NCBI GenBank assembly: GCA_013373515.1 | Contig: JABXHR010000193.1 | Span: 1-35,610 of the forward strand | Reading direction: 5' to 3' | DNA from: Gammaproteobacteria bacterium | GTDB lineage: Bacteria; Pseudomonadota; Gammaproteobacteria; JABXHR01 | Length of the DNA: 35,610 nt | In this document: positions 1,906 to 34,945 of the stretch, piece after piece | Numbering within the stretch: the first letter of the stretch is position 1 | Layout of the letters: each line of letters begins with the position of its first letter | Position numbers and translations under genes: made by a program | Notes under the pieces: model-generated | Seen by the model: the letters and a program-made list of their open reading frames with translations, nothing else | Told to the model about the DNA's origin: nothing | Database searches by the model: none

Positions 1906-2889
1906 ATGAAACTAGTCGCAGCGGTGATTTCAGCCGCGTTAATGAGCTTCGGCGTTGCCCACGCACAATGTGACGACGGCGAAATCGTCGCCAAACTGAG
2001 CCACGTCACTGGCGGCACCACCCACCCAAAAGTGGTTGCTGCTAACAACCTCGCAGAGCGCGTCAACAGTGAACTCAATGGCAAGATGTGCATCGAGGTA
2101 TACCCAAACTCGACGCTGTTTGGCGATAGCAAAGAACTCGAAGCGTTGCTGCTTGGCGATGTTCAGTTGTTGGCCCCATCACTATCGAAGTTTGGCTCGT
2201 ACACGCGCAAATACGGCGTCTTCGATCTGCCCTTTATCTTTAAAGACATGGACGCCGCCATGGCTTTCACCAACTCGGAGACCGGCAAAGGCCTGTTGAA
2301 CGAAATGGAAGACGTTGGCTTTACCGGCTTGGGTTACTGGATGTCAGGTATGAAGTACTTCTCTGCCAACAAGCCTTTGTTGACGCCATCAGATGCCAAC
2401 GGCTTGAAATTCCGCGTTCAGTCTTCTGACGTTGCCAAGGCGATGATCGCCGCGATGGGTGGTTCTCCGCAGCCAATGGCGTTTGCTGAGGTATACGGCG
2501 CACTGCAAACCGGTGTTGTCGACGGCCAGGAAAACACTTGGTCAAACATCTACACCAAGAAGTTCTTTGAAGTTCAAGACGGCACAACCGAGACCAACCA
2601 CCAGTTGTTGGCTTACTTGTTCATGACCTCTACTGAATGGCTCGGCAGCTTGCCGGAAGACGTGCGTGCTGATTTCTTGCGCATTGCAGACGAAGTCACA
2701 CAGGAAGCCAACCTTGCCGTCAAGGCGGCAGAGGAAGCTAACCGTCAAAACATCATTGATGCAGGTGGCGAAATTCGCACGCTCGATGCCACTCAACGCC
2801 AAGCATGGGTTGACGCGATGAAGCCTGTTTGGAAGCAATTTGAAGATGAGATCGGCGCCGATGTCATCAACGCAGCAGCTGGCTCTTAA
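1906..2889 (+). CDS. dctP: TRAP transporter solute-binding protein DctP
   Basis: Periplasmic substrate-binding protein of a tripartite ATP-independent periplasmic transporter, 327 residues, the usual family length. A Sec signal peptide (about residues 1-20, cleavage after AHA) is followed by the DctP fold. Recognisable blocks are YPNSTLFGDSKELEALLLGD, the LPFIFKD strand, and KFRVQSS, whose Arg is the conserved carboxylate-binding residue of the family, then FAEVYGALQTGVVDGQEN. The pattern is closest to C4-dicarboxylate binders (malate, succinate, fumarate), but ligand specificity is inferred. GGAGAG sits 7-8 bases ahead of the ATG. It is first gene of the dctPQM operon, separated from dctQ by two strong hairpins that probably favour higher DctP levels. 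Confidence 0.92.
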   Translation: MKLVAAVISAALMSFGVAHAQCDDGEIVAKLSHVTGGTTHPKVVAANNLAERVNSELNGKMCIEVYPNSTLFGDSKELEALLLGDVQLLAPSLSKFGSYTRKYGVFDLPFIFKDMDAAMAFTNSETGKGLLNEMEDVGFTGLGYWMSGMKYFSANKPLLTPSDANGLKFRVQSSDVAKAMIAAMGGSPQPMAFAEVYGALQTGVVDGQENTWSNIYTKKFFEVQDGTTETNHQLLAYLFMTSTEWLGSLPEDVRADFLRIADEVTQEANLAVKAAEEANRQNIIDAGGEIRTLDATQRQAWVDAMKPVWKQFEDEIGADVINAAAGS

Positions 2890-2908
2890 TCCCTTTCGGG
2901 AATAACGA

Positions 2909-2928
2909 CTTGGGGCGCTAGCCCCAAG
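2909..2928 (+). promoter_or_regulatory. intercistronic hairpin 1 (dctP-dctQ)
   Basis: Perfect 8-bp stem CTTGGGGC / GCCCCAAG with a GCTA loop, 20 bases after the dctP stop codon. No T run follows, so it is more likely to stabilise or partly attenuate the transcript than to end it. Such structures are common after binding-protein genes, which are needed in excess over the membrane subunits. Confidence 0.6.
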
Positions 2929-2932
2929 CACT

Positions 2933-2953
2933 GCCGCGCCACGCCGGCGCGGC
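2933..2953 (+). promoter_or_regulatory. intercistronic hairpin 2 (dctP-dctQ)
   Basis: A second perfect 8-bp stem, GCCGCGCC / GGCGCGGC with loop ACGCC, begins only four bases after the first. It is followed by GTTTG rather than a true T tract. Together the two form a tandem barrier to 3' exonucleases between dctP and dctQM. Confidence 0.6.
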
Positions 2954-2975
2954 GTTTGCTCTGACGGATTTCACC

Positions 2976-3650
2976 ATGAACGTTACGCTTACTTTGGCGC
3001 TATTTATCGCCGCTTGGGCGCTGCTGGACTATTTAAAGCCCCAGTTTGTCGCCAACTTAGAAGACAACATTTTGAGCTTTTTGCTCGCCATCATCACCTT
3101 GGTGTCCTTTGGCCAAGTGGTGGCTCGATATGGCTTCAACACCGGCTGGTCCGCTGCACTGGAGTTCAACATGCTGGCGTTCTCGTGGTTGATACTGTTC
3201 GGTATGAGCTATGGCATTCGCACCCGATTGCACCTCGGTGTCGATATTTTGCTGCAAAAAGTCGGGCCGCAAACCGCGAAAATGTTGGGCATTTTCGGCG
3301 GATTACTCGGTGCATTTTATGCACTCATTATTTTGGACGGTGCAGTGCTCAGCATTGTCGGCGTCGACAAAGAAGGTGGTGCGATCACCTACTTTGCCAA
3401 AATGTACAAAGTGGGCATCGGTGTTGAGGAAATGAAATACCCCGCGTTTGTCCAAGAAATGTTCGGTCTCAAGCGCCCGCACGTACAGCGCTGGGTGGTG
3501 TTACTCATTCTACCCATCAGCTTGGGATTGCTGGCTTATCGCTGCCTGCAAGCCTCTTGGCACATTTATACCGGCCAGTGCGGCTCATTGATTGCAGGCC
3601 ATGAGGCCGAATCTTTGGTCGAAGAAAACCGTGGCGCATTGAAGGACTAA
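2976..3650 (+). CDS. dctQ: TRAP transporter small permease DctQ
   Basis: Small integral-membrane subunit of the TRAP transporter, which docks the binding protein and pairs with DctM. The 224 residues contain four to five hydrophobic segments (about 1-20, 32-52, 66-86, 100-125 and 168-187) and the family-typical run Q-VVARYGFNTGWSAALEF followed by the IRTRLHLGVDILLQ loop. It is longer than many DctQ proteins (about 160-180 residues). The extra length is a hydrophilic stretch around residues 128-165 and a charged C-terminal tail. The dctM start follows after three bases, so translation is probably coupled. Confidence 0.88.
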   Translation: MNVTLTLALFIAAWALLDYLKPQFVANLEDNILSFLLAIITLVSFGQVVARYGFNTGWSAALEFNMLAFSWLILFGMSYGIRTRLHLGVDILLQKVGPQTAKMLGIFGGLLGAFYALIILDGAVLSIVGVDKEGGAITYFAKMYKVGIGVEEMKYPAFVQEMFGLKRPHVQRWVVLLILPISLGLLAYRCLQASWHIYTGQCGSLIAGHEAESLVEENRGALKD

Positions 3651-3653
3651 ACC

Positions 3654-5264
3654 ATGACTGCATTAATTTTATTGGGGTTCGTGCTGCTGTTTTTGGCCAT
3701 TGGCTTGCCAGTTGGCTTGTGTCTCGGTCTCAGCTCGCTGCTATTTATTGCGTTCTTTTCGCATGACTCGATTTCCTCGGTGGCCATCCAGCTGTTTGGC
3801 GTGGGCACCCATTACACGCTACTTGCCATTCCGTTTTTCGTATTGGCCTCGGCGTATATGTCGACCGGCGGCGTGGCCAAGCGCTTAATTCGATTTGCAA
3901 TCGCCTCGGTTGGGCATTTCCGCGGCGGTTTGGCCATGGCCTCGGTGCTGGCGTGTATGTTGTTTGCGGCGCTGTCCGGCTCTTCGCCTGCCACGGTGGT
4001 CGCTATCGGCACCATCGCCATTGCGGGCATGCGTCAGGTCGGCTACAGCAAAGAGTTTGCTTCTGGCATTATTGCTAACGCGGGAACGCTCGGCATCTTG
4101 ATTCCGCCCTCGATTGTGATGGTGGTTTATGCGGCGGCGACCGATGTGTCGGTCGGCCGTATGTTTTTGGCCGGGGTGATTCCTGGGCTGATGGCGGGCG
4201 CCATGTTGATGGCAGCGATTTATATTGTGGCTCGGGTTAAGGGGTTACCGTCGGGCGAGTGGAAAGGCATCGGCGAATGGCTCTCTGCTGCCAAAGAAGC
4301 TGCTTGGGGCTTATTCCTAATCGTTATCATCATGGGCGGTATTTACGGCGGCGTGTTTACCCCAACCGAGGCGGCAGCAGTTGCAGCCATTTACTCGGCA
4401 TTTGTGGCGCTATTTATCTACCGCGATATGGGGCCTTTAAAAGACACCCCTTGGACGGACGACAGCGACAGTGCGCTCGCCGTCACTGGCTTCAAGTCGA
4501 TCGTCTACGGCATCAGCTTTTGGGCGCTTTGGATGGTGTTGAGTTTCTTCGCCACCGCCGACAACGAGAACATTGGTTTTGCAGGTCGTGCGCTGGCCGG
4601 CGTGGTGCTGTCGGTCGCATTGGCGGTGTTCTACCTCAACAAGCGCGCAGCAGGCCAAGACAAGGGCGAAGCGCTGCGCGCTGGAAGCCAAATTTTGGGT
4701 CGCAACCTTGCCTTGATTGTGATGCGTTTTTTCCCCACCATGTTCGGCGGCGAATCTAAGCACGTCACACTGGAAGCAGCGCGTACCACAGTGATGCTCA
4801 TGTTTATCATCGGCAACGCGTTGTTGTTTGCCCATACCCTAACCGCAGAGCGTATTCCACAACTGATTACCGAGGCGATGCTCGATGCGGGCTTTAACTG
4901 GTTTACTTTCCTAATTGCGGTGAACATTCTGCTGTTGATTGGCGGCCAGTTTATGGAGCCATCAGGTCTGTTGGTCATCGTGGCGCCGGTGGTATTCCCG
5001 GTGGCAATGGAGCTTGGGGTCGACCCTATTCACCTCGGCATCATCATGGTGGTGAACATGGAAATCGGCATGATCACCCCACCGATTGGGCTCAACCTTT
5101 TTGTCACCTCTGGCATTACGGGCATGAGTCTCGACAAAGTCGTCCGAGCCGCAATGCCATTTGTGGCGGTGTTAATGATCTTCCTAATTATGGTCACTTA
5201 CATCCCTGCACTGAGCACTTGGCTGCCGTACTCGATTATGGGCCCCGAAATCATTACCAAATAA
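3654..5264 (+). CDS. dctM: TRAP transporter large permease DctM, with internal insertion
   Basis: Large transport subunit that carries the substrate across the inner membrane using the sodium gradient. The N-terminal half is canonical: IPFFVLAS, the GSSPATVVAIGTI re-entrant loop near residues 113-125, GTLGILIPPSI, and FTPTEAAAVA. So is the C-terminal part, with the GGQFMEP and MITPPIGLNLFV loops. The protein has 536 residues against about 430 for most relatives. Roughly 110 residues (about 258-368) are inserted after the FIYRDM strand, before the segment that resumes with TLEAARTT. The insert appears to hold two membrane spans plus a charged stretch. AAGGA lies upstream of the ATG. The gene ends at a strong terminator. 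Confidence 0.9.
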   Translation: MTALILLGFVLLFLAIGLPVGLCLGLSSLLFIAFFSHDSISSVAIQLFGVGTHYTLLAIPFFVLASAYMSTGGVAKRLIRFAIASVGHFRGGLAMASVLACMLFAALSGSSPATVVAIGTIAIAGMRQVGYSKEFASGIIANAGTLGILIPPSIVMVVYAAATDVSVGRMFLAGVIPGLMAGAMLMAAIYIVARVKGLPSGEWKGIGEWLSAAKEAAWGLFLIVIIMGGIYGGVFTPTEAAAVAAIYSAFVALFIYRDMGPLKDTPWTDDSDSALAVTGFKSIVYGISFWALWMVLSFFATADNENIGFAGRALAGVVLSVALAVFYLNKRAAGQDKGEALRAGSQILGRNLALIVMRFFPTMFGGESKHVTLEAARTTVMLMFIIGNALLFAHTLTAERIPQLITEAMLDAGFNWFTFLIAVNILLLIGGQFMEPSGLLVIVAPVVFPVAMELGVDPIHLGIIMVVNMEIGMITPPIGLNLFVTSGITGMSLDKVVRAAMPFVAVLMIFLIMVTYIPALSTWLPYSIMGPEIITK

Positions 5265-22587: not shown

Positions 22588-25017
22588 CTATATCGAAAAA
22601 AGCTCCGGCAATGAGGTTGCACCGTGCCGACCAAAACGTCGACCCACCTCGTCTAGACTTTGTAGCGGCACCGTAAAGAAATAACCTTGTAGCGTGTCAA
22701 CACCATGCGCTCGCAACCAGGTGAGGTTCTGCAAGTTTTCGATGCCCTCGGCCGTTACAGGTAGCCCGAGTTGGTTGCACATATCAATCACACTTCGGCA
22801 GACGGTCTGTCGCTTTTGATTGAAACACAACCCATCAACGAAAGACTTATCGAGCTTGATAAAATCCACTGGCAATTCAATCAGGCGCGTCAGCGAACTG
22901 TGCCCAACGCCAAAGTCGTCAATTGCAATTTTGTAGCCACGCTCGCGGACGGTTCGCAGTGAGGCCAAGACTTGATCGTGTAACTTAAATGCGGCGTGTT
23001 CGGTCATTTCGAGCGTGATTCTCGTCGGCGAAATGCCGTAGCGACGCGAGGCATCGTCTAACCGAGCTGCAAAATCACTCTCTCGAATGACACATTCGGA
23101 AATATTGATATTGAGTCTCACCTCAGAATCGACCATCTGAGTACACCCTGCAAACTGCTGCAAAGCCTTTTCAATCGCCAAGAATCCTGCCTTTACGCCA
23201 AACTCTCTAGATTCGAGCAAGTCGACAAAATACTCGGTTGAGTTCACCATCGGCCGATCATCCTGTTGCCAGCGCAGCAGCGCCTCAACAGCCACCAAGT
23301 CAGAGTGTTTTGCACCGACGATCGGCTGCCAATAAACCGAAATTTGATCCTTGCTCAGCGCAGCGCGGAATTGCTCGATGATTTGACTCTTTTGGGTGGC
23401 TTGATCCAGAAAGGCGCGTTGATAGCGCACCAACTCACCTGCCTTAAGCTGCTTAGAATGGTACATCGCCAAATCGACAGCCTGTGTCATCCCGAGTGTG
23501 GTCGGTGAATCGTCCGGGTATACCGCATAGCCAAACGAGGCTTGAATGGAAATATTGCGATCGCCCAGCATCAAATCGTTGGCGAATGCTTTCTGTATCC
23601 GCTGATGTAAGGTATGCATGGCGCTTTCATCATGTGGACCTGGAAGCAGAACCGCAAACTCATCCCCGCCCCAGCGGTAGGCCGAGTTATGGGGCGCAAT
23701 CAATTTCAAGCATTTGCCAATTTCAGCCAAGAGCTGATCACCCGTTAAATGCCCCTCGCTATCGTTAATCTGTTTAAAACCAACTAAATCAAAGAACAGC
23801 AGACAAAAGCTGCTAGTCTCAGACTCTTTCATTAAGCGGTGCTCAAAAGCCAAACGATTGGGCAAACCGGTCACCACGCATAACTCACGGAATCGATCCA
23901 ACTCGCGTTTGGCCGCATTGATCGCTCCCAGCTCTAAATTGAAGAATTGACGAATCCGCAGGATTTTGTTTTTCAGGTATTCTGCGTTATCCGCAACATC
24001 ATCCAAAGGCTCACTGAGAAGGGTTTCAATACGGCCCATCTCAAGCGAATCCTTCTCAATGTCGTACTCTGGGTACTGACGCAGACGATCCGTCCAACAT
24101 TCAATCTCCTCATAATCTCGGTTGCGATACATCACTTCAAAAACATCTGTCGCCGTGCCTTTCAAAAAGTGAAATGCGCCAACCTCGATCTGCAAAGCTA
24201 GGGTCTTTTCACCATAGTGTTGAGCCCTCTCCCACTTGCGCAAGGCGCGATAAGCTTCGAATAAATTGCCGGTAATAAAGATGCTAAGGAAGGCATTTTT
24301 ATTGGGCAAACGGCGTAGAAATCGCCGAGCCTTTGCAAGTAAGCCCACACTGCGTGCTGGTTCGCCTCGAACAGTCAAATAGTGAGCGCTGCTCAGCAGA
24401 ATTAGGATTGCTTGGGGTAAAAAGCCTTCAGCCATGGTCTGATCAACAAAGCGATCAATGATGTCTAGTTGGTAATTAATTCCCTCGCTTACCTCCAAAC
24501 AACCCACTAAAAATTGCCCTTTCCAAATCAGGTGCTGACGTCGATATTGTGTCGAGTAAAGTTTTTCGATGCGTTTTCGGTAAGGCAACATGGCCCTAAA
24601 GGTATTTTGCCCAGTCGTCGGCAGTCGCAAGCGCAGTTCGTCCGTAATCGAAATCGCCAAATCGGCATATTCCTTCTGCACTGGGTGAGTAATTTGGCGC
24701 AGCTTAGATTTAAATTCTAATGCGAATTTATGCGGCAAAAAGTGATGATAGCGATATACCTCGATACTCACCCAAACCTTTATCACATCAGGCAAATCAT
24801 CGCGTGCTAATAGCAACTGAGCAGCACGGCTCATGACAACAAACTCAAATAAGTTGCTTGCCGCTTTTACCACTGCGGCGAGTTCGACGGAGGAGCAATT
24901 TGTGGGTCTAGGATTAGACCACCAATGACGGTTCAATATGGCATGACAAAGGTCGTCAGAAAATGGTTGGGTGTAGCAGTTTTCAATATCGATCGAGTCG
25001 ACTGAGGTGAGTTCCAT
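22588..25017 (-). CDS. GGDEF-EAL protein with a long helical N-terminus
   Basis: An 809-residue cyclic-di-GMP enzyme. The GGDEF domain (about 375-535) keeps the intact GGDEF at 450-454 and the FDLVGFKQINDSEGH metal and substrate block. The EAL domain (about 550-800) keeps EALLRW (578-583), NINIS, LEMTE (669-673), DDFG (700-703), Lys721 and AEGIE (756-760), so both synthesis and hydrolysis are possible. The first 370 residues contain no membrane span or known sensor that I recognise; they are helical and rich in aromatic and basic residues, perhaps TPR-like around 200-340. The protein is therefore likely cytoplasmic. The ribosome site is a modest AGAG. Confidence 0.9.
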   Translation of the reverse strand: MELTSVDSIDIENCYTQPFSDDLCHAILNRHWWSNPRPTNCSSVELAAVVKAASNLFEFVVMSRAAQLLLARDDLPDVIKVWVSIEVYRYHHFLPHKFALEFKSKLRQITHPVQKEYADLAISITDELRLRLPTTGQNTFRAMLPYRKRIEKLYSTQYRRQHLIWKGQFLVGCLEVSEGINYQLDIIDRFVDQTMAEGFLPQAILILLSSAHYLTVRGEPARSVGLLAKARRFLRRLPNKNAFLSIFITGNLFEAYRALRKWERAQHYGEKTLALQIEVGAFHFLKGTATDVFEVMYRNRDYEEIECWTDRLRQYPEYDIEKDSLEMGRIETLLSEPLDDVADNAEYLKNKILRIRQFFNLELGAINAAKRELDRFRELCVVTGLPNRLAFEHRLMKESETSSFCLLFFDLVGFKQINDSEGHLTGDQLLAEIGKCLKLIAPHNSAYRWGGDEFAVLLPGPHDESAMHTLHQRIQKAFANDLMLGDRNISIQASFGYAVYPDDSPTTLGMTQAVDLAMYHSKQLKAGELVRYQRAFLDQATQKSQIIEQFRAALSKDQISVYWQPIVGAKHSDLVAVEALLRWQQDDRPMVNSTEYFVDLLESREFGVKAGFLAIEKALQQFAGCTQMVDSEVRLNINISECVIRESDFAARLDDASRRYGISPTRITLEMTEHAAFKLHDQVLASLRTVRERGYKIAIDDFGVGHSSLTRLIELPVDFIKLDKSFVDGLCFNQKRQTVCRSVIDMCNQLGLPVTAEGIENLQNLTWLRAHGVDTLQGYFFTVPLQSLDEVGRRFGRHGATSLPELFSI

Positions 25018-25299
25018 CTCTAGCTCTCTGGCGCAAAAGTATTGAGTGATGCACGGTCACCACCACTGGCGTTATACCGTGTCAAATTCCGGTGCCCCTT
25101 CGTAGGGCGACAAAGAGGCATGCAAGATTCGAACCGCATACCAACAATCGTAAGCAAGGGACGCCGGCTATGACCGGCAAAATGCAGGTTAAGGGCGAAC
25201 AATCAGTCGTAATGAGACTAAGGCGCAGAGCGTGTGACCATATCGCCTGTCAATGGACGATTAAGCTCTAAATTAAGCGCACTTATTTCGGAGTTTCAC

Positions 25300-25650
25300 A
25301 TGCAATACACCAACAAATTTCAAGCCATGGCCGATGCTGCGCGTGCGCGTGTTCAATCTGTTCAAGCGTCGGACGTTGATTCACTGATGGCCGATGGCGC
25401 AATTGCGCTGGATATTCGAGATCCAGACGAACACGCCGCCGGACACATTTCAGGCTCACAAAATCTGAGCCGTGGCAAATTAGAAATGCTGGTGGAGGGC
25501 CGTATCCCCGAGCTGGATACCAAAATTATGTGCTACTGCAATGCCAACAATCGCGGCGCATTATCCGCCGCTGCATTGGTGGATATGGGCTATATCAATG
25601 CCACCTATATTGAAGGCGGCTTAAATGCTTATAAGGCGCTAAGTGCCTAA
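25300..25650 (+). CDS. single-domain rhodanese-like sulfurtransferase
   Basis: A 116-residue single rhodanese domain. The active-site loop CNANNR (80-85) has the six-residue form of sulfurtransferases, with Cys80 as the persulfide carrier; the preceding CH2A-type LDIRDPDEHAAGHI block is also typical. A longer frame begins at 25234, but GGAG at 25290-25293 lies six bases before the ATG of 25300, which decides the start. No signal peptide, so cytoplasmic. Upstream is a 7-bp direct repeat, ATTAAGC (25260-25266 and 25272-25278), of unknown meaning. The sulfur donor and acceptor cannot be inferred from neighbours. Confidence 0.85.
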   Translation: MQYTNKFQAMADAARARVQSVQASDVDSLMADGAIALDIRDPDEHAAGHISGSQNLSRGKLEMLVEGRIPELDTKIMCYCNANNRGALSAAALVDMGYINATYIEGGLNAYKALSA

Positions 25651-25679: not shown

Positions 25680-28094
25680 TCACCCGCGCATTCGAGATGC
25701 TTCAGGGTCAAACAAAGGGGCGCTAAACAAGCGTGCTTGGTAACTTTCGCCCAATATCTCAATCGAAACTTCTAAGCCTTCTTTTACCAATTCCACGGGC
25801 AAGAACCCAAAGGCCACCGACTTTTGCACATGGTGTGCATAGCCACCAGAGGTCACAAAGCCCACCAATTTGCCCTCGTACCAGATGGGCTCATCCGCAT
25901 GCACATCCGCGTCTGCCGCATCGACCACAAACGAACACAATTGCCGTTTTGGGCCATTATCGCGCTCGGCGGTGACAGCAGCCTTGCCAATAAAATCCGC
26001 CGCCTTGTGATAGGCCACAAAGCGCGACATGCCCGTTTCTGCAGGCAGATAGTCTGGTTTAAATTCTCGCATCCAAGAGCCGAAATTCTTCTCCAAGCGC
26101 AAACTCATCATGGCGCGCATACCAAACGGACGCATAGCGTACACCTCGCCAACGGCCATCAGCGCGCGGTAGAGCGCAACTTGATCTTCGGCGTCGCAGT
26201 AGATTTCATAGCCAAGATCCCCGGTATACGTGACCCGCTGTACCCAAACCTCAATACCCGCAACCTGCATGGCATGGGCACTTAAGAATGGAATGGCCTC
26301 ATTGCTGCAATCTGCGCCGCTGGCGACGGCCAACACCTCGCGCGATTTTGGACCTGCGATTTGAAATCCAATCCTGCCGAGCGAGACATTCTCGATCTCA
26401 ACTTTGGCATCGCCCAGTTGCTGCTCGAACCAACGTTGATGAAAGGCCTGAAAACCGTAGCTTGCCGTCAACAAATAGCGCGCATCGCCTAAATTGGTGA
26501 TGGTGAAATCACCCAGCAATTTGCCGCTTGGGCTGCACATTGGACTCAAGCTAATTCTGCCGGGCTTTGGCAAGCGGCCCGCCATCACTTTATCGAGCCA
26601 AATTTCCGCGTCGTCGCCAGACACCATGTACTTGCCAAAGTTGGCGATCTCATTGATACCGACTGCGGTACGAACCGCATTGCACTCTGCGGCGGTGGCA
26701 GCAAACGCATTTGAACGCCTAAAGCTGGGCGTTTCGTAACGATCGTCTTCACCAAGCGCGAAGTAATTGGGCACTTCCAGACCATATTGCGCCCCAAATA
26801 CGGCACCAGCCTCGGCCCAGGTGTCGTACATCGGCGTCTTCACCTGCCCACGCGCAGCGGGTAGCTCCTCATTGGGATACACAATTGAGAAGCGCTTTTG
26901 GTAATTTTCGGTCACTTTTAAGCGCGTGTACTCGCGGTCAATCCATGGTCCAAACCGTGCGACATCCATGGCGAACACGTCGGTCTCTGGCTCGCCATGC
27001 ACCATCCACTGCGCCAATGACAAACCAACGCCACCGCCTTGCGAGAAGCCCGCCATCACGGCACAGGCAGACCAGTAATTGCGCAATCCGGGCACTGGCC
27101 CCACCAGTGGGTTGCCATCTGGGGCAAAGGTAAAGGGGCCGTTGATGACAGTTTTGATGCCTGCACGCTCCAACACGGGATACCGTTGGAACGCAAACGC
27201 CAATGAGTCGCCGATGCGGTCGAGATTGTTATCCAACAACTCGTGCCCAAAATCCCATGGCGTGCCGTTGACGGCCCATGGGTCGCATTGCTGCTCATAA
27301 AAACCGATACAAAGCCCTCGGCCCTCTTGGCGCAAATAGCTTTCACCGGCTGGATCCATCACATGCGGCAGCTCGGCGTCGCGCTCGAAAACCTCTGGGA
27401 TATCCTCGGTGACCAGATATTGGTGTTCCATTGGGTGCAGCGGCAGATAAACCCCTGCCATTTCGCCCACTTCACGCGCCCATAAGCCTGCGGCATTGAC
27501 CAAATGCTCACAGTCGATGGTGCCTTTGTCGGTGATCACTCGCCAACCCTCTGCGGTGGGCTCGGTGGCAGTGACCTTGGTGTGCAATTCGATTTCAGCC
27601 CCGGCCATTTTGGCGGCTTTAGCATAGGCGTGCGTGGTACCGGAGGGGTCAAGGTGCCCGTCCAGCGGGTCGTAGAGACCACCGAGCACCCCATCAATAT
27701 TGGTGACTGGCGAGAGCTTCGCGATTTCCTCTGGCGTGACAATTTCGGTATTTAAGCCCATATATTGGTGCTTGGCACGCTCGGCTTTGAGCATATCGAG
27801 CCGCTCCTTGCTCGAGGCCAGCGTGACGCCACCAACATGGTGCAAGCCGCAGGACATGCCAGTTTGTGCTTCGAGCTCTTTGTATAGCCGGATGGTGTAG
27901 CCCTGCAGTGCCGCCATATTGGTATCGGAGTTCAGGGTATGAAAGCCCCCAGCGGCGTGCCAAGTCGACCCCGATGTTAGCTCTGAGCGCTCTAGCAACA
28001 CACAGTCCGTCCAGCCCAGCTTGGTCAAGTGATACAACACCGAGCAACCGACGACACCACCCCCGATGATGACGACTTGAGCATGGGTTTTCAT
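25680..28094 (-). CDS. dimethylglycine/sarcosine dehydrogenase-like GcvT-family flavoprotein
   Basis: An 804-residue FAD enzyme of the dimethylglycine/sarcosine dehydrogenase class. The N-terminal DAO domain begins with VVIIGGGVVGCS (8-18), and STWHAAGG (43-50) carries His46, the position of covalent FAD attachment in this family. The C-terminal half (about 430-800) is the GcvT-type folate-binding domain with its C-terminal barrel. The enzyme probably oxidatively removes an N-methyl group and passes it to tetrahydrofolate, but dimethylglycine, sarcosine and other methylated amines cannot be told apart here. AAGGAG gives a perfect ribosome site inside the preceding gene, and the start overlaps that gene's stop by four bases. 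No signal peptide. Confidence 0.86.
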   Translation of the reverse strand: MKTHAQVVIIGGGVVGCSVLYHLTKLGWTDCVLLERSELTSGSTWHAAGGFHTLNSDTNMAALQGYTIRLYKELEAQTGMSCGLHHVGGVTLASSKERLDMLKAERAKHQYMGLNTEIVTPEEIAKLSPVTNIDGVLGGLYDPLDGHLDPSGTTHAYAKAAKMAGAEIELHTKVTATEPTAEGWRVITDKGTIDCEHLVNAAGLWAREVGEMAGVYLPLHPMEHQYLVTEDIPEVFERDAELPHVMDPAGESYLRQEGRGLCIGFYEQQCDPWAVNGTPWDFGHELLDNNLDRIGDSLAFAFQRYPVLERAGIKTVINGPFTFAPDGNPLVGPVPGLRNYWSACAVMAGFSQGGGVGLSLAQWMVHGEPETDVFAMDVARFGPWIDREYTRLKVTENYQKRFSIVYPNEELPAARGQVKTPMYDTWAEAGAVFGAQYGLEVPNYFALGEDDRYETPSFRRSNAFAATAAECNAVRTAVGINEIANFGKYMVSGDDAEIWLDKVMAGRLPKPGRISLSPMCSPSGKLLGDFTITNLGDARYLLTASYGFQAFHQRWFEQQLGDAKVEIENVSLGRIGFQIAGPKSREVLAVASGADCSNEAIPFLSAHAMQVAGIEVWVQRVTYTGDLGYEIYCDAEDQVALYRALMAVGEVYAMRPFGMRAMMSLRLEKNFGSWMREFKPDYLPAETGMSRFVAYHKAADFIGKAAVTAERDNGPKRQLCSFVVDAADADVHADEPIWYEGKLVGFVTSGGYAHHVQKSVAFGFLPVELVKEGLEVSIEILGESYQARLFSAPLFDPEASRMRG

Positions 28095-29005
28095 GAGCGG
28101 ATCTCCTTGGATTGACGCTGACTATGATGAATGAGTTCATCTTTGACACTTAGGCCATAGCGACGGCCGATTTCGTGGTACCCGGAGAACCAATACGCCC
28201 CGTTCAATCGCTGCCAGTGCGCCTTTTTTTCACGATAAACCCGTGGAATGGCATACCAAGGCACGCCCGGCAATGTGTGATGAACAATATGTAGATTATT
28301 GTGCAAAAACAAAAAGCTCAAAACGACATTGGTTTCCACGATTGCCGTAGACTCTTCATTGCTCTGCGCGGGGCGGTGCTCGTAATAACTGCGAAGCGAA
28401 ATTAGCGCCGCTCCCGGCCAAGCGACGCAGAACAAATAAACCCACAGGCTCATTCCCGCAGCAATAAGCCCCAAGCCAAGCCCGACCAACCCTATCAATT
28501 GAAGCGATAAATTGGCCATAATCTCGCCAGTTGGCCTTTCTAAAAGCTGGCGAACCCCCGCCCACGCGCCGAGCCACGGCCCCAAAACCAACCGCCCAAT
28601 CAAACAACTATTGATACGGTACAGCCACCGCATGGGACGGCTAAGTGCAGCCCAGTCTTCAGCGGTGAAAAAATAGGACTCGGGGTCAGTCTTTGGGTGT
28701 GTGAGCTCGTCGGTTACATGGTGCGCCAAATGCGAACGGCGATACTCCAAATAACAGGTCCACGGGATCAGTGGCCAAAATATCAGCGCTGTATTGAACC
28801 ACTGATAACGCGTTGGATGACCATGAATGCACTCATGCTGTAACGAGGAATGCAACCCTGCGCATAAGGCCATCGGCAGGCACCAAACTAAACTCGGCGC
28901 AGCCGCATAGCCCACTAGTGCCCCCACAAACACCCCGTAGCATCCCAATATCGCCAACCATGTCGGCCATTCGTAGGGTTTTATCAATGTCGTCATTTGC
29001 TTCAT
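28091..29005 (-). CDS. fatty-acid-desaturase-like membrane di-iron protein
   Basis: A 304-residue membrane protein of the fatty acid desaturase superfamily. Three histidine clusters expected to bind two irons are present: HECIH (57-61), HLAHH (92-96) and HNNLHIVHH (235-243). Several hydrophobic segments flank them (about 15-50, 68-84, 165-200). The family includes lipid desaturases and also hydroxylases acting on small molecules. Tight coupling (ATGA overlap) with the dehydrogenase downstream suggests a role in the same pathway rather than in membrane lipid adjustment; this is inference. It is the first gene leftward of the 86-base divergent control region, and its own ribosome site is weak. 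Confidence 0.83.
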   Translation of the reverse strand: MKQMTTLIKPYEWPTWLAILGCYGVFVGALVGYAAAPSLVWCLPMALCAGLHSSLQHECIHGHPTRYQWFNTALIFWPLIPWTCYLEYRRSHLAHHVTDELTHPKTDPESYFFTAEDWAALSRPMRWLYRINSCLIGRLVLGPWLGAWAGVRQLLERPTGEIMANLSLQLIGLVGLGLGLIAAGMSLWVYLFCVAWPGAALISLRSYYEHRPAQSNEESTAIVETNVVLSFLFLHNNLHIVHHTLPGVPWYAIPRVYREKKAHWQRLNGAYWFSGYHEIGRRYGLSVKDELIHHSQRQSKEIRS

Positions 29006-29030
29006 AGGTCAGAAGTGTAAAGAAACGTCA

Positions 29031-29080
29031 TTGCATACCACAGTGTTTTGTAGTTAACATCTGCTAACACTGTTTATATT
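29031..29080 (+). promoter_or_regulatory. divergent control region with inverted repeat CAGTGTT-N18-AACACTG
   Basis: CAGTGTT (29041-29047) and AACACTG (29066-29072) form a perfect 7-bp inverted repeat. Inside it lies GTTAACATCTGCTAAC, itself partly symmetric. A possible rightward promoter is TTGCAT (29031-29036) with TAACAT (29055-29060), 18 bases apart; TATATT (29075-29080) is another -10 candidate. The repeat covers these elements, so a bound regulator would block or reposition polymerase. The adjacent XRE protein is the natural candidate to bind it. Confidence 0.5.
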
Positions 29081-29091
29081 TAATTAACACC

Positions 29092-29934
29092 ATGAACAAG
29101 CAGCTACTCGTCCACCAATTTCAACAGCGGGTTACTCGGCGAATCGACAGCGAAAACATCTCGAGAGCCCAACTCGCACGGCTGATTGGTGTTGAGCGTT
29201 CGGCGGTTACCCAGCTGCTTCACCCTGAAAGCACTCGCATGCCGCGCTCAGACACGCTGGCCGCAGTTGCCGCTGCACTGAGCGTCTCCACAGATTGGCT
29301 ACTTGGAATCGAGGCTACCCCTCAAAAAGGCGCCGACATTCTCGTCGCGCCGCAAAGCTTGGTCGAAGAAAATCCAATCCATCCCGAGGAGCACCTTGAG
29401 CTTTGGCATCAAGAGAGCCTCGGCGAAAAAATCCGCTACTTCCCTGCAACCCTGCCCGACATCTGCAAGATAGAAGCAGTGGTGGACTATGAAAATGACA
29501 ACTTGCCGGAGCCAACGCCTCGGCGCGGCCGATTTCATATTTTTCAATCTAAGCGCCACGACATTGAGGAAAGCCTCGAGGGACTGGACATGGAAATTTG
29601 CCTGCCCAAACATCATTTATATGACTTAGCTGACGGCAGTGGATTGTGGCGAGAGCTACCACTTGAGGTTAGGCGCGAACAGCTGGCAGCGATTGCGGGT
29701 TTTATCGATCAGACCTACCCAAGGGTGAGAATTTACTTGGTCGATATGCGCGAGAGCATGGGCGCGCCGTATACATTGTTTGGCCAACGCCGTGTTGCCA
29801 TCTACCTAGGGAGAGCATACTTTGTGTTCACCACCGAGCGACATATCCGCCAGATGCACCGCCATTTTGATACCATGATCCGTCGCGCAACCCACCAACC
29901 TACCGACATAATTGAGTTAATCGAGTCCCTATGA
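29092..29934 (+). CDS. XRE-family transcriptional regulator with uncharacterised C-terminal domain
   Basis: A 280-residue DNA-binding regulator. The Cro/C1-type helix-turn-helix lies at about 12-70, with SRAQLARLIGVERSAVTQLLHP as its recognition part and STDWLLG closing it. The remaining 200 residues are alpha/beta in character, with repeated Arg, Glu and aromatic residues; I do not recognise this domain, which may bind a ligand or protein. The gene overlaps the next by four bases (ATGA) and diverges from the desaturase-like gene, so autoregulation and control of both transcripts are likely. No Shine-Dalgarno is seen before the ATG, so the message may be leaderless or poorly translated. Confidence 0.8.
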   Translation: MNKQLLVHQFQQRVTRRIDSENISRAQLARLIGVERSAVTQLLHPESTRMPRSDTLAAVAAALSVSTDWLLGIEATPQKGADILVAPQSLVEENPIHPEEHLELWHQESLGEKIRYFPATLPDICKIEAVVDYENDNLPEPTPRRGRFHIFQSKRHDIEESLEGLDMEICLPKHHLYDLADGSGLWRELPLEVRREQLAAIAGFIDQTYPRVRIYLVDMRESMGAPYTLFGQRRVAIYLGRAYFVFTTERHIRQMHRHFDTMIRRATHQPTDIIELIESL

Positions 29935-30677
29935 TTGTTCGCTTTCCCATGTATCGCACCGAAGCCGTCGACCAAGCCTACCAAGCGCTTTGGGAGGCAA
30001 TATTGCAGGGACTGCCCGAACATCTCGTTGAGATTTTGCCTACGTCTGTAAGCCAAGACAGCGACGAAGAACTGATCGCACATTGGCAAAGTACGGAAAC
30101 CATTTTGTCGCAAACTTGCGGCTACCCGCTATTGACCGAACTCTCCAACCAACCGCTAGTGGTTCCACACTATGCTGTCGAGGGCTGCGAAGGCGCGAAT
30201 TACCGCAGCGTGATTTTGGTGCGTGCCGACAACAAAGTTCGCCATCTCCAAGATCTCTACAAGGCTCGCCCGGTGATCTCTGAACGTGACTCTTGGTCCG
30301 GCCACCACACGTTGTTACGAGAGTTTGCGCGGCTTGGGCGCAGCCATCGCCTCGAGCATGCCTTTGTCAGCGGCTCGCATGTTGGATCGATCGAAGTGCT
30401 ACTCAATAACCGCGCCGATTTTTGCGCCGTGGACTGCGTCACTTGGCACCATCTTCAGCAAAGCTCTCCAGAGGCGATCGAAGGGACACGGGTACTCAGC
30501 ATGACCGCCCCATCACTTGGTCTGCCGTGGATATCCAACGCGCCTCGCCGTATACAATCTGCGCTACAAACAGCAATTTTGGCGCTTGATCTCGAGAGTG
30601 ACTTTGCGAAAACACTCGCACTGAGTGGCTTCTCACTTCACAGCCGTGAAGACTATGAAACCGCGATGGCGCTGTAA
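29931..30677 (+). CDS. PhnD-like substrate-binding protein without signal peptide
   Basis: A 248-residue protein resembling the PhnD/SsuA/transferrin-type periplasmic binding fold. Markers are SQTCGYPL near residue 57-64, the loop VILVRADNKVRHLQDLYKARP, ERDSWSGHHTLLREF and SHVGSIEVLLNNRADFCAVDCVTW, which match PhnD-type phosphate/phosphonate binders. The N-terminus MIVRFPMYRTEAVDQAYQAL is not a signal peptide and no lipobox is present, so it should stay in the cytoplasm. No ABC permease or ATPase accompanies it. Coupling with the XRE regulator suggests a sensory or enzymatic role rather than transport. The ligand is unknown. Confidence 0.78.
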   Translation: MIVRFPMYRTEAVDQAYQALWEAILQGLPEHLVEILPTSVSQDSDEELIAHWQSTETILSQTCGYPLLTELSNQPLVVPHYAVEGCEGANYRSVILVRADNKVRHLQDLYKARPVISERDSWSGHHTLLREFARLGRSHRLEHAFVSGSHVGSIEVLLNNRADFCAVDCVTWHHLQQSSPEAIEGTRVLSMTAPSLGLPWISNAPRRIQSALQTAILALDLESDFAKTLALSGFSLHSREDYETAMAL

Positions 30678-30799: not shown

Positions 30800-33700
30800 A
30801 TGTCGCCTCGAAAACTCGTCACGCTTAGCCTGCTGATCGTATTTATCCAAGCTTGTGGGGAAGCGACGCTCATTGGAAACAATGTCTCTGATAGCTCTGC
30901 GGCAACGAACACTGGCAATCACACAGACAGCAATATTGACAGTACGGTGGGCACCGAGACTGGCGCAACCGTACCCACGACACCAACCGATTCAGGTTCG
31001 TCGTCTAGCTCAACGGAGCAAACCGCTGCACCGCAAACCGTTGGATGCATCGTCGGCGCACCACTGACAGCACTCCGTCCCGGCAGCGGTGATCTCGACG
31101 GTGACGGTCTTAGCGATCAACAAGAGCAAACAGCAGGCTCAGATCCCAACGACCCCGATTCACCTATCTACGGTGGCAATGCTGATCTTGATCAAGATGG
31201 CGTGGCAAATGCTATCGATAACGACTATGCACCAGATTCGGATTGTGACGACGATGGCGCCAGCAATCAGTTTGAATATGCCATGGGCACCAATCCAGCA
31301 GAAGCCACAGTGGTCATTAGCGCAGACGCAGCGACTGAGCAGATCTATTCACGGTTAAATACCCGCTTTACAGCGCGCAATCTGGCCGGTGAACCGCTAG
31401 CAAATGAACCCTTGGTGGTATCCATGGCGGTTTCCACCAACACCATCGGCGCGACAACCAATCTAACCTTGGAGCGCACCACCGATGAAAACGGTGTTGC
31501 GACCTTTAATTGGCTACCCAACTTAGATGGCCAGGTGTATGCGAAGGTTTACCTAAAGGGTCGACCCAATCAGCACTCAACATTTGGCCCTTTCAGTGTC
31601 ACTCGCGCCAACCCGTCAACAACGTTCTACAACCCGGACAACACCAACCGTCGCTACTCGAGTCTTCACAGTAGCTTGGATGATACCGTTGATTCACGCA
31701 TCAATGCCCCGCAGGGCTGGTATGCCGCTGACAAAGCCATCGGCGATTGGATTGAATTCGATATACCAAGACGCACGCTGGTCGCAGGAGTGGTCATACA
31801 ACCTCGGCAAGGCATTGAGCAAAAAATCACTGAATTCAGGCTACAAAAGCAGCTAGATGATGGCAATTTCGTCAATATCCCAGGACGATATCGCCCCGCA
31901 TATGACGGCGAATCCCCAGTTGAAATTAAACTCAATCACTATGTCGCTGCCAATAAATTGCGGGTTGTTATCGAGGATTTCGTGGGTCACCCTTCGGCTC
32001 GGATTGGCCTCTTGCTGATCGATACGCCATCGATTTTGAGCCTAGATCCTGAGCAAGACAGCGATGGGGACGGCTGGACTGATTTGGCTGAAAAGCGCAT
32101 GCAGACCGACCCAAATGACGCCACAGATCCGCAGCTGATCGATCCCGAGGCCGCAGCGCGACGATATAGTGACAGCCAAGACAATGCCGCTTGCAACGAT
32201 GGGCGATTGGCTGGCTCGGGTTGGTGCCCGCCGACTCAACAAGTGAATCCCTGGGCTGAAGTTGATGTGCCAGCCAATCAGATATTGGTCGGCGTTCGAG
32301 TTGACGCCAACGCAGACAACCCCGCTTGGCACTTCACCCGCTTCAAGCTCGCAGGGCGCGCGCACAACGACCTAATGCTGCCGTTTACGCGTCATCAAAC
32401 CTTCAACGCAATTGCGGACAAAACCCAACCCACAGATCTCATCTTGGGACATCAACTCAGCCTTAAATCCATACGCTTTTATGGGCTTGAGTACGAGGGC
32501 AAGCCCTCAGCCAGAATCGGACTTTGGGTCCGCGACCGGCACAACGCAAACATCGTACTGCCAGACACCGATGGTGACGGCCTGAGTGATATGCACGAAA
32601 GCCTATTCAAAACCGATCCCAGTCAGATCGATAGTGATGGCGATGGCTTGAGCGATGCCGATGAAATGAAACTCGGCTACAACCCTCTGAGTCGCGATAG
32701 CAATGCAAACGGCGTGGCCGATGCGGTCGAATGGATGCTAGTCCAAGGATTGGGGCTCGACGAGGCATTGAATGATCGCGATGGCGATGGGCTTCCAGAT
32801 GCAGCCGAGCACTGGTATCAAACGGATGCAGATCAGTACGATACCGACAATGACGGGCTGAGCGATCTTGAAGAAATCGGCTTTAGCGACACCGACCCGA
32901 CCGACGCAGACTCGGACAATGACGGTGCCAAAGACGGGCTGGAGTACACCCACGGCACCAATCCTTGGGAGTGGGCCGATCCGACCAGTGATAGCTGGCT
33001 CGATAAGGATGAAGACGGATTGGCTGCCTCAGAAGAAATCATCTATCAGCTCAGCAATCTAGATGACGATTTTGACGATGATGGCTTGTTAGACGGTGAA
33101 GAGATTGAACTGGGTAGCAATCCCGCCAATGCCGACAGCCCGATCACCAATGGTGGACTAGACACCGACAGTGACGGCCTAAGCGATGCCCGTGAGTACT
33201 ATTTACTCAGCCTTGCCAACGACCCAGATTCGCCGGTGGAATTCGGCCATAAAGACCATGATCTCGATGGTATCCCCAATGCCGCCGACCAAACTTATGT
33301 CCCCGAACGCAATATGGATGGCGATCATTTAAGTGACGCCGAGGAAATGGCCATCGATAGCCGTGCTTTCGATGGCAATAGCCCAATGATCGGCGGTCAC
33401 CAAGATCTCGATGACGACGGCGAACGCAATGCCATTGATACAGACTTTGAAGCCCATGCCGATGCGGACGGCGATGGTCTAAGCAACGCACAAGAATACG
33501 CCATGGCGGCGCTACCAAATGAGGCCAACAGTCCGAGCCTTCTGGTCGGTGCGGATCTCGACGGCGACACTGTACCCAATGCGATCGATCCAGACTATGA
33601 TCCCTACGCCGATGCTGACGCAGACGGCCTAAATAACGCATTTGAATATCGAAGTGGCACCGATCCCTTGGTGGCCACAGACACCAGCCAGTGGGCCAAC

Positions 33701-34945
33701 ATCACGCTCACCAAACGTGCGCGCAATACCATTCACAATGTCCTCAACGAATTTGAAATTCCTGCGGCCGCCCTAGGCGATCAGCGGTTTTATTCACAAA
33801 ACTCCTTGACCCTCCCGAAGGTGAGCATCATTGACCGCGAGCCCACCGAGGAAATTTATGCACGCCAAAGCAGTGGTTTTGATAGCCGAGCGCTGAGTTT
33901 GGAACACGACGACAACACCACATGGTTAATCAACCGCACACCGCGGACCTTTTCAGGACTTGGACTGCTCGATGCCAACAGCGGTCGCTTCACCCACCTT
34001 GACGGTTATATTTCCAGCTTCAGCAAAATGCGCCTAAGCGAGCACAATGAACAGTGGCAAGTGGTCGATCCAAACCCACTGACGCCGATTGTGGTGTCCG
34101 CCTACACCAATGCCAGCCAAAAGTCCGCGCGTCGCAAAGTGGTTAATGAATATATCGATGAATATGACCGCATGATCATCGGACTAAAGCTGCTCTACAA
34201 CCACCCTCTGACATGGGATATGGTGTTTGACTACCCACACAGCTGTGGCGGCAGTTACACCATTTGCGATGAAAGTAAGCACAGCTACTTCCAAGAGGCG
34301 ATTTATCGCAACCTCAACCGCGTCAAAGCGATCGAACATGGCATTTTGTGGAAGCACTCGGCGGTCGGCCTAGCTTGGGGAAGCGTGCAAACCCAAACCA
34401 CTGGAACCCTCGATGAGTACAACACCTTTCATCATGAGCGAAATCACAACCTTGGCTATCCGCACAGCTCTGGTCTGACTTATGGCTTGTCGCCCTATAT
34501 GTCCACAGTGTCCAGAGACAACGACCTATTTTGGCCGGGCCACAACTCACGCAACTACCCGATGTGGGTGGAGGCACCGAGGTTCTATCGCAGCTGGGCG
34601 GATGAAAGCACTAACACCGTTGAAGTCGAGATTTTTAGCGACATGGCGCTTGATCGGGTTTATGCCTTCAATAATCAAAGTTTGGATGACTTCACCCAGG
34701 CCTACTTTGATCCCAAAACCAAGCGCTTTGTGTTTGAGCTGACCGATACCCAGTGGGCGAGTCGGCATTTGAATCTGGTGTTCTTTGATAGCCAGTCAAA
34801 ATGGGATTATGTACCGGTGAGCGTGGTGCTACCGGCTGCCAGCCAACTGCTTGAAGATCCTCTGCACAAGATAGATCACGCACCTTGCGAGCCCGACGAT
34901 ATTGACCCACAGACCGGTGCTTGCGTCTGCCTAGAAACGCACTAA
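30800..34945 (+). CDS. giant calcium-repeat lipoprotein with metzincin zinc protease motif
   Basis: A 1381-residue exported protein. A signal peptide ends in IQAC with Cys19, a plausible lipobox, followed by a Ser/Thr/Gly-rich linker (20-90). Then come two TSP3-like calcium repeats (94-170), an Ig-like module (172-270), two discoidin-like modules (about 271-412 and 454-585, each ending ARIGL), and a long array of DxDxDG-type repeats (about 587-954; roughly 19 such motifs in the whole protein). The C-terminal domain (955-1381) holds HERNHNLGYPH at 1212-1222, an exact HExxHxxGxxH, with a possible Met-turn at Met1234 (PYMST). That pattern defines metzincin metalloproteases. I cannot assign the family further. 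It probably acts at the cell surface on proteins or glycoproteins. No Shine-Dalgarno is visible. Confidence 0.8.
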   Translation: MSPRKLVTLSLLIVFIQACGEATLIGNNVSDSSAATNTGNHTDSNIDSTVGTETGATVPTTPTDSGSSSSSTEQTAAPQTVGCIVGAPLTALRPGSGDLDGDGLSDQQEQTAGSDPNDPDSPIYGGNADLDQDGVANAIDNDYAPDSDCDDDGASNQFEYAMGTNPAEATVVISADAATEQIYSRLNTRFTARNLAGEPLANEPLVVSMAVSTNTIGATTNLTLERTTDENGVATFNWLPNLDGQVYAKVYLKGRPNQHSTFGPFSVTRANPSTTFYNPDNTNRRYSSLHSSLDDTVDSRINAPQGWYAADKAIGDWIEFDIPRRTLVAGVVIQPRQGIEQKITEFRLQKQLDDGNFVNIPGRYRPAYDGESPVEIKLNHYVAANKLRVVIEDFVGHPSARIGLLLIDTPSILSLDPEQDSDGDGWTDLAEKRMQTDPNDATDPQLIDPEAAARRYSDSQDNAACNDGRLAGSGWCPPTQQVNPWAEVDVPANQILVGVRVDANADNPAWHFTRFKLAGRAHNDLMLPFTRHQTFNAIADKTQPTDLILGHQLSLKSIRFYGLEYEGKPSARIGLWVRDRHNANIVLPDTDGDGLSDMHESLFKTDPSQIDSDGDGLSDADEMKLGYNPLSRDSNANGVADAVEWMLVQGLGLDEALNDRDGDGLPDAAEHWYQTDADQYDTDNDGLSDLEEIGFSDTDPTDADSDNDGAKDGLEYTHGTNPWEWADPTSDSWLDKDEDGLAASEEIIYQLSNLDDDFDDDGLLDGEEIELGSNPANADSPITNGGLDTDSDGLSDAREYYLLSLANDPDSPVEFGHKDHDLDGIPNAADQTYVPERNMDGDHLSDAEEMAIDSRAFDGNSPMIGGHQDLDDDGERNAIDTDFEAHADADGDGLSNAQEYAMAALPNEANSPSLLVGADLDGDTVPNAIDPDYDPYADADADGLNNAFEYRSGTDPLVATDTSQWANITLTKRARNTIHNVLNEFEIPAAALGDQRFYSQNSLTLPKVSIIDREPTEEIYARQSSGFDSRALSLEHDDNTTWLINRTPRTFSGLGLLDANSGRFTHLDGYISSFSKMRLSEHNEQWQVVDPNPLTPIVVSAYTNASQKSARRKVVNEYIDEYDRMIIGLKLLYNHPLTWDMVFDYPHSCGGSYTICDESKHSYFQEAIYRNLNRVKAIEHGILWKHSAVGLAWGSVQTQTTGTLDEYNTFHHERNHNLGYPHSSGLTYGLSPYMSTVSRDNDLFWPGHNSRNYPMWVEAPRFYRSWADESTNTVEVEIFSDMALDRVYAFNNQSLDDFTQAYFDPKTKRFVFELTDTQWASRHLNLVFFDSQSKWDYVPVSVVLPAASQLLEDPLHKIDHAPCEPDDIDPQTGACVCLETH

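Follow-up and report, generated by a model that had tools for sequence, protein, structure and literature searches.

Cobalamin-dependent demethylation of glycine betaine has been assigned to the MtgBCDE gene set of marine bacteria, Ruegeria pomeroyi among them, in which it is coupled to methionine synthesis; no desaturase is mentioned for this system (PMC12478193). Further protein groups relevant here are the mitochondrial and bacterial dimethylglycine dehydrogenases (DMGDH), the membrane fatty acid desaturases and the substrate-binding proteins of the PhnD, PtxB, AioX and ArrX type, and these groups are treated individually below. In the binding proteins, an SxSG stretch together with a histidine holds an oxyanion.

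Here we analyze a 35,610-nucleotide stretch of gammaproteobacterial DNA (the window), which is the entire contig C216 of a 3.65-Mb genome in 287 contigs. It encodes a four-gene locus consisting of an XRE regulator, a desaturase-like membrane di-iron protein (DES), a cytosolic PhnD-like protein (PHN) and a DMGDH-like flavoprotein. The genome has in common with the MtgBCDE system of R. pomeroyi (PMC12478193) a PF06253 methyltransferase, a corrinoid protein of the MtgC type and MetF-, MtgD-, RamA- and MtgB-like neighbors, and the pathway proposed below is also similar in its tetrahydrofolate-linked follow-up demethylation. In contrast to MtgBCDE, the four-gene module adds the XRE regulator, the membrane di-iron protein and the PhnD-like protein, and its associated MttB and DMGDH proteins belong to other clades. 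Each of these families is known but their association appears to be undescribed, with no published link among them found in the open-licence literature, where few subscription journals and preprints are covered. In many marine bacteria, the conserved four-gene unit accompanies the B12-dependent enzymes that remove methyl groups from betaine-like compounds, and it looks like an undescribed, oxygen-using and self-regulated branch of this pathway.

Organization and protein families of the four-gene locus

The locus occupies positions 25680 to 30677 of the window and contains the following features.

25680..28094, minus strand: DMGDH-like flavoprotein, 804 amino acids (open reading frame list, Pfam, alignment with DMGDH, tree)
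28091..28094, minus strand: ATGA overlap of the DES stop and DMGDH start codons, 4 bases (sequence)
28091..29005, minus strand: DES, desaturase-like membrane di-iron protein, 304 amino acids (open reading frame list, Pfam, alignment)
29006..29091, no strand: divergent control region between the DES and XRE start codons, exactly 86 bases (sequence)
29092..29934, plus strand: XRE regulator, 280 amino acids, with HTH_3 at residues 20-70 and a C-terminal domain (about 180 residues) that is conserved
29931..29934, plus strand: ATGA overlap of the XRE stop and PHN start codons, 4 bases (sequence)
29931..30677, plus strand: PHN, cytosolic PhnD/AioX-fold binding protein without signal peptide, 248 amino acids

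A preliminary description of this DNA had proposed four open reading frames in two divergent units, each coupled by an ATGA overlap and separated by 86 bases, and all of these elements were confirmed, strands and positions included. Pfam assigns DAO, FAO_M, GCV_T and GCV_T_C to the DMGDH-like protein, FA_desaturase to DES, HTH_3 to XRE and Phosphonate-bd (PF12974) to PHN. The DMGDH-like gene is flanked by genes for a GGDEF-EAL protein (22588-25017) and a rhodanese-like protein (25234-25650), neither of which was seen recurring as a partner. Directly 3' of PHN lies a gene for a 1381 amino acid protein (30800-34945) that begins like a lipoprotein and contains many acidic repeats of the DxDxDG type, likewise not seen as a member of the island described below. 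A TRAP transporter (DctP/DctQ/DctM) is encoded at 1906-5264, about 20 kb from the locus.

The DMGDH-like protein possesses the four domains of a dimethylglycine dehydrogenase and aligns end to end with the human and rat enzymes (E 1e-188; residues 2-802 with human). It retains the STWHAAG motif, whose histidine we take to be the flavin-linking residue. The full-length domain order and the motif, the latter visible in the alignment with 5l46, are shared with mitochondrial and bacterial dimethylglycine dehydrogenases (PDB 5l46, 4p9s), while the window protein differs from these in that its clade is associated with XRE and MttB.

DES carries both the PF00487 domain and the eight-histidine di-iron site of the fatty acid desaturase superfamily, with H57, H61, H92, H95, H96, H239, H242 and H243 invariant in an alignment of 31 relatives. 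These features are common to the membrane fatty acid desaturases CrtR and GntB, but unlike them DES scores weakly against every curated family, far below the respective cut-offs (34.9 against 475 bits for CrtR, 18 against 350 for CrtW and 24.7 against 380 for GntB). No relative was found in the PDB at E 1, and the window sequence is not firmly placed in the DES tree, in which the L037 row is a fragment. At one locus (L074 10240-12062, genome G052), two desaturase-like genes are arranged in tandem with an ATGA overlap, with no XRE or PHN detected.

PHN combines the PF12974 fold with the oxyanion-site motif of PhnD, PtxB and AioX proteins. Its model (pLDDT 92) represents a PhnD-type binding protein with AioX, ArrX and PtxB as the nearest folds (Foldseek E 2e-14 for AioX), and residues C63, S93, S121, S123, G124, H150, D168 and P199 are invariant in the family alignment, C63 aligning with the cysteine of the CGYP segment of AioX. 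PHN differs from AioX, ArrX, PtxB and PhnD in lacking a signal peptide and an ABC transporter or kinase partner and in adjoining a DES or XRE gene. A hydrophobic N-terminus is absent from PHN, where the maximum 15-residue Kyte-Doolittle mean within the first 45 residues is 0.86 (family median 0.42), and from every other member of the family; neither an ABC transporter nor a sensor-kinase gene lies beside PHN in the window. N-terminal hydropathy and neighboring genes thus bear out the earlier suggestion of a non-exported PhnD-like protein without ABC partner, and PHN represents a case of a binding-protein fold retained in the cytosol beside a transcription factor. PHN would bind an oxyanion-bearing substrate or product and then either report to the regulator or pass the ligand to the enzymes. 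An arsenic-related role, considered in view of the AioX and ArrX folds and the aligned cysteine, was rejected as unlikely, as no arsenic gene was noticed nearby.

Distribution of XRE, DES and their partner genes

To locate related loci, 84,980 species genomes were scanned with DES as seed, yielding 41 loci (42 rows, L037 being counted twice due to a split match) with 29-44% identity. Most of these have a divergent XRE gene on one side of DES and PHN after it, with PHN adjoining DES more often than XRE. DMGDH is found nearby at 14 loci, MttB (PF06253, E 1e-190) at 15 and a sarcosine-oxidase-like FAD protein at 8. Since DES seeding favors DES, an alignment of XRE was taken as a second query, which retains some bias as most of the aligned sequences came from DES loci.

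The XRE search identified 29 positive genomes among 398 Pseudomonadota genomes. All 29 contain DES compared with 18 of the 369 genomes without XRE, and 27 contain an MttB-family methyltransferase (the exceptions being G380 and G741) compared with 15 of 369. The corresponding Fisher P values, 5e-32 for XRE-DES and 6e-29 for XRE-MttB, ignore relatedness, and families f219 and f223 alone contribute many of the 29 genomes. The pattern is nevertheless also present in f1, f242, f243, one of two f210 genomes and, from the gammaproteobacterial search described below, four further families. The neighborhood is more than chance, its associations recurring over several families of Alpha- and Gammaproteobacteria. 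Several f223 genomes possess MttB without XRE. DES without XRE is only weakly linked to MttB (5 of 18 genomes, and none of the 12 DES-positive, XRE-negative gammaproteobacteria), indicating that the DES accompanying MttB is the one marked by XRE. When 369 gammaproteobacterial genomes were searched, XRE was found in 6 genomes as 8 copies, several of which sit with MttB, DMGDH and PHN; one locus (L093) reads MttB-XRE-DAO-DMGDH with no DES near.

At the 29 XRE-seeded loci on the alphaproteobacterial side, DES is divergently adjacent in 27, PHN lies within 3 kb in 12, MttB within 9 kb in 13 and DMGDH is found in 10. Many f223 loci contain the divergent XRE and DES genes with MttB, PHN and DMGDH absent within 9 kb. 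The co-occurrence of the four families predicted in the preliminary description is therefore seen across genomes, DES accompanying XRE throughout and PHN and DMGDH recurring at XRE loci. The proposed unit itself stands but its internal pairing does not, as XRE and DES form the steadiest pair, PHN is more often found by DES, and DMGDH is an accessory that the locus shares with MttB.

Because DES, PHN, MttB and DMGDH recur around XRE loci, the window carries part of a larger island, XRE/DES-PHN-MttB-(sarcosine-oxidase-like)-DMGDH, where the slash marks the divergent region. The fullest island, XRE/DES-PHN-MttB-DAO-DMGDH, is present in Kiloniella, while the order in Pararhodobacter is MttB-XRE/DES-PHN-DMGDH. 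In family f219 (L135), the order is MttB-DMGDH-DddP-like M24-PHN-DES/XRE, followed by a BHMT/MtgE-type gene, and the same 18-kb stretch also holds genes for another MttB and for a corrinoid protein. At L138, XRE and PHN are separated by a formaldehyde-activating gene, and on a Phaeobacter plasmid the XRE/DES pair is located near genes for carnitine 3-dehydrogenase and a BKACE enzyme.

These arrangements also bear on the narrower scheme of the preliminary description, according to which DES would supply DMGDH directly, with no MttB step, and PHN would serve as a dedicated sensor for XRE. The ATGA couplings in the window agree with such a scheme, as does the presence of PHN beside XRE at L092, L127, L138 and L140. 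However, direct adjacency of DES and DMGDH is found in the window alone among the loci examined, DMGDH elsewhere coming after PHN, MttB or the sarcosine-oxidase-like gene; PHN follows DES and not XRE at most loci, and MttB recurs with XRE. We consider this narrow version very unlikely.

DES and PHN are convergent and lack XRE at several Rhizobium loci, and on a Klebsiella plasmid (NZ_CP084831.1, L081 7004-8783) they form an overlapping tandem without XRE or MttB. As such pairs occur without XRE, the function of DES and PHN extends beyond the MttB pathway. Next to the Klebsiella pair are genes for an ABC transporter and for a monooxygenase of the NtaA/DmoA type.

In several genomes (L128 3549-4928, L135 5125-6480 and L025 15240-16640), DMGDH or PHN is adjoined by an M24 protein with similarity to DddP, a DMSP lyase; this protein is absent from the window. 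It scores 473 bits against a curated cut-off of 600, and its substrate may be different from DMSP. A link of the locus to DMSP is suggestive only. In genome G361, two XRE copies flank genes for HutG, HutF, an aromatic amino acid (histidine-type) ammonia lyase and an imidazolonepropionase-like amidohydrolase (L091 10172-15875, L092 11778-13007), with HutG overlapping the XRE stop codon. Hercynine (histidine betaine) was considered as a substrate based on these hut genes (HutG, HutF, HutH-like and the amidohydrolase read as HutI), but was not adopted because tblastn found them at no fetched locus outside G361.

An MttB-type methyltransferase elsewhere in the genome

No Pfam-scanned open reading frame of the window matches PF06253, and none of the six MttB matches in the genome is located on C216. 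In addition to these six MttB genes, the genome encodes one PHN, one DES, one further XRE paralogue (C21) and, if those of only GcvT or DAO type are counted, 17 matches to the DMGDH-like protein. The single B12-binding_2 protein (corrinoid, MtgC) is encoded on C122, where it is followed by DUF1638-like, MetF, MtgD, formaldehyde-activating-type and RamA-like open reading frames and, further on, by a GlxA/AraC-like regulator and an MttB gene (MtgB-like); apart from MttB and the corrinoid protein, these names are readings of the sequences rather than family-search results. A different MttB, at C139:29301-30797, groups with the island MttBs of G074 and G213 (support 98/95), and the window DMGDH groups with the island DMGDHs (97/99). 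The C122 genes correspond to the set described for R. pomeroyi (PMC12478193), and the genome therefore holds an MtgBCD-type gene set as well as an island-type MttB. As the C139 MttB and the window DMGDH both fall in island clades, the island is present but split in this genome, and C139 cannot join the four genes directly because the window contig extends at least 4.9 kb past them on both sides. The MttB-type methyltransferase is the missing key enzyme, which lay on another contig and hence outside the view of the preliminary description, whose assignment of the locus to methylated-amine metabolism is supported.

We propose that the four genes supply regulation and an oxygenase to a conserved module that is accessory to the cobalamin-dependent catabolism of quaternary amines, and give this reading, including the full scheme that follows, about even odds (roughly 0.5). 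The island-type MttB, here that on C139, would move one methyl group of a quaternary amine to MtgC and, with MtgD, to tetrahydrofolate. The DMGDH-like enzyme would take the next methyl group, from the tertiary amine, to tetrahydrofolate, and the sarcosine-oxidase-like enzyme, where present, would take the last. DES would hydroxylate or oxidatively N-demethylate a betaine-type compound or close derivative. It need not act on the MttB substrate, as the DES-PHN pairs of Klebsiella, Pseudomonas and Rhizobium lack XRE and mostly MttB. Counting against the module are the location of the island MttB outside the window contig, the many f223 loci at which XRE and DES stand without the other partners, and the two XRE genomes with no MttB match. 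As a conserved marker of genomes with the pathway, the pair of regulator and oxygenase would offer a handle on its substrates and hints at an unsuspected oxygenase step.

Ordinary glycine betaine catabolism, with DMGDH handling dimethylglycine and with XRE, DES and PHN as an extra regulator and side functions, would be consistent with the full-length homology of the DMGDH-like protein and with the f219 locus, where genes for another MttB, a corrinoid protein and a BHMT/MtgE-type protein are found. Yet the mtg cluster of the genome comes with an MtgB-like gene of its own, several other paralogues of the DMGDH type are encoded, and the clade of the window DMGDH is a distinct one of island proteins travelling with its own MttB clade, which makes this explanation rather improbable.

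XRE regulator and control region

The C-terminal domain of XRE is conserved in the family alignment, and the fold of its model (pLDDT 83) matches phospholipase-D-like proteins, phosphatidylserine synthase among them, only weakly (E about 0.02 to 0.1). At E 0.02 or worse, these matches are too weak to name the domain, which is perhaps a degenerate sensor domain judging from the model. They would nevertheless fit a role in lipid or stress adaptation, where DES modifies fatty-acyl chains or head groups, XRE senses the membrane state and the closeness of osmolyte genes reflects shared salt or osmotic regulation. Membership of DES in the fatty acid desaturase family and the occurrence of DES-PHN without MttB point in the same direction. 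Against this, beyond the weakness of the fold matches, DES lies far below every curated family, XRE is associated with MttB at the level of whole genomes, and the genes that recur in the vicinity are those for DMGDH, sarcosine-oxidase-like, BHMT/MtgE-type, corrinoid and carnitine functions, no lipid gene family being seen recurring around the locus. A lipid function is thus unlikely.

Within the proposed quaternary-amine module, XRE would control the divergent DES gene and probably itself, and in the window would control PHN and DMGDH along with DES. Two candidate operators, both with weak evidence, can be discerned in the control region.

29071..29089, no strand: imperfect dyad TGTTTATATTTAATTAACA shortly before the XRE start codon
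29040..29073, no strand: inverted repeat ACAGTGTT-N18-AACACTGT, read from the sequence

A conserved XRE operator was not established from shared dyads, as 17 of 62 divergent regions contain one (7.8 expected) but a control stretch also gives 14 (7.4 expected).

A more specific version of the module, which we regard as doubtful, is that XRE and the non-exported PhnD/AioX-fold protein form a two-part cytosolic switch sensing a betaine that carries an oxyanion, as sulfonate betaines like taurine betaine do. PHN would act as the sensor and the switch would turn on the di-iron oxygenase, resulting in an oxygen-dependent route into B12-dependent demethylation. If true, both the pathway and the sensing arrangement would be so far undescribed.

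The second XRE-family copy of the window genome (L095, G000:C21, 10388-11242) stands alone with no partner genes near. A small DUF2061 gene is found between XRE and DES in Phaeobacter and, in Mesorhizobium, divergent to XRE with no DES (L077 8681-9849, L078 8627-9852).
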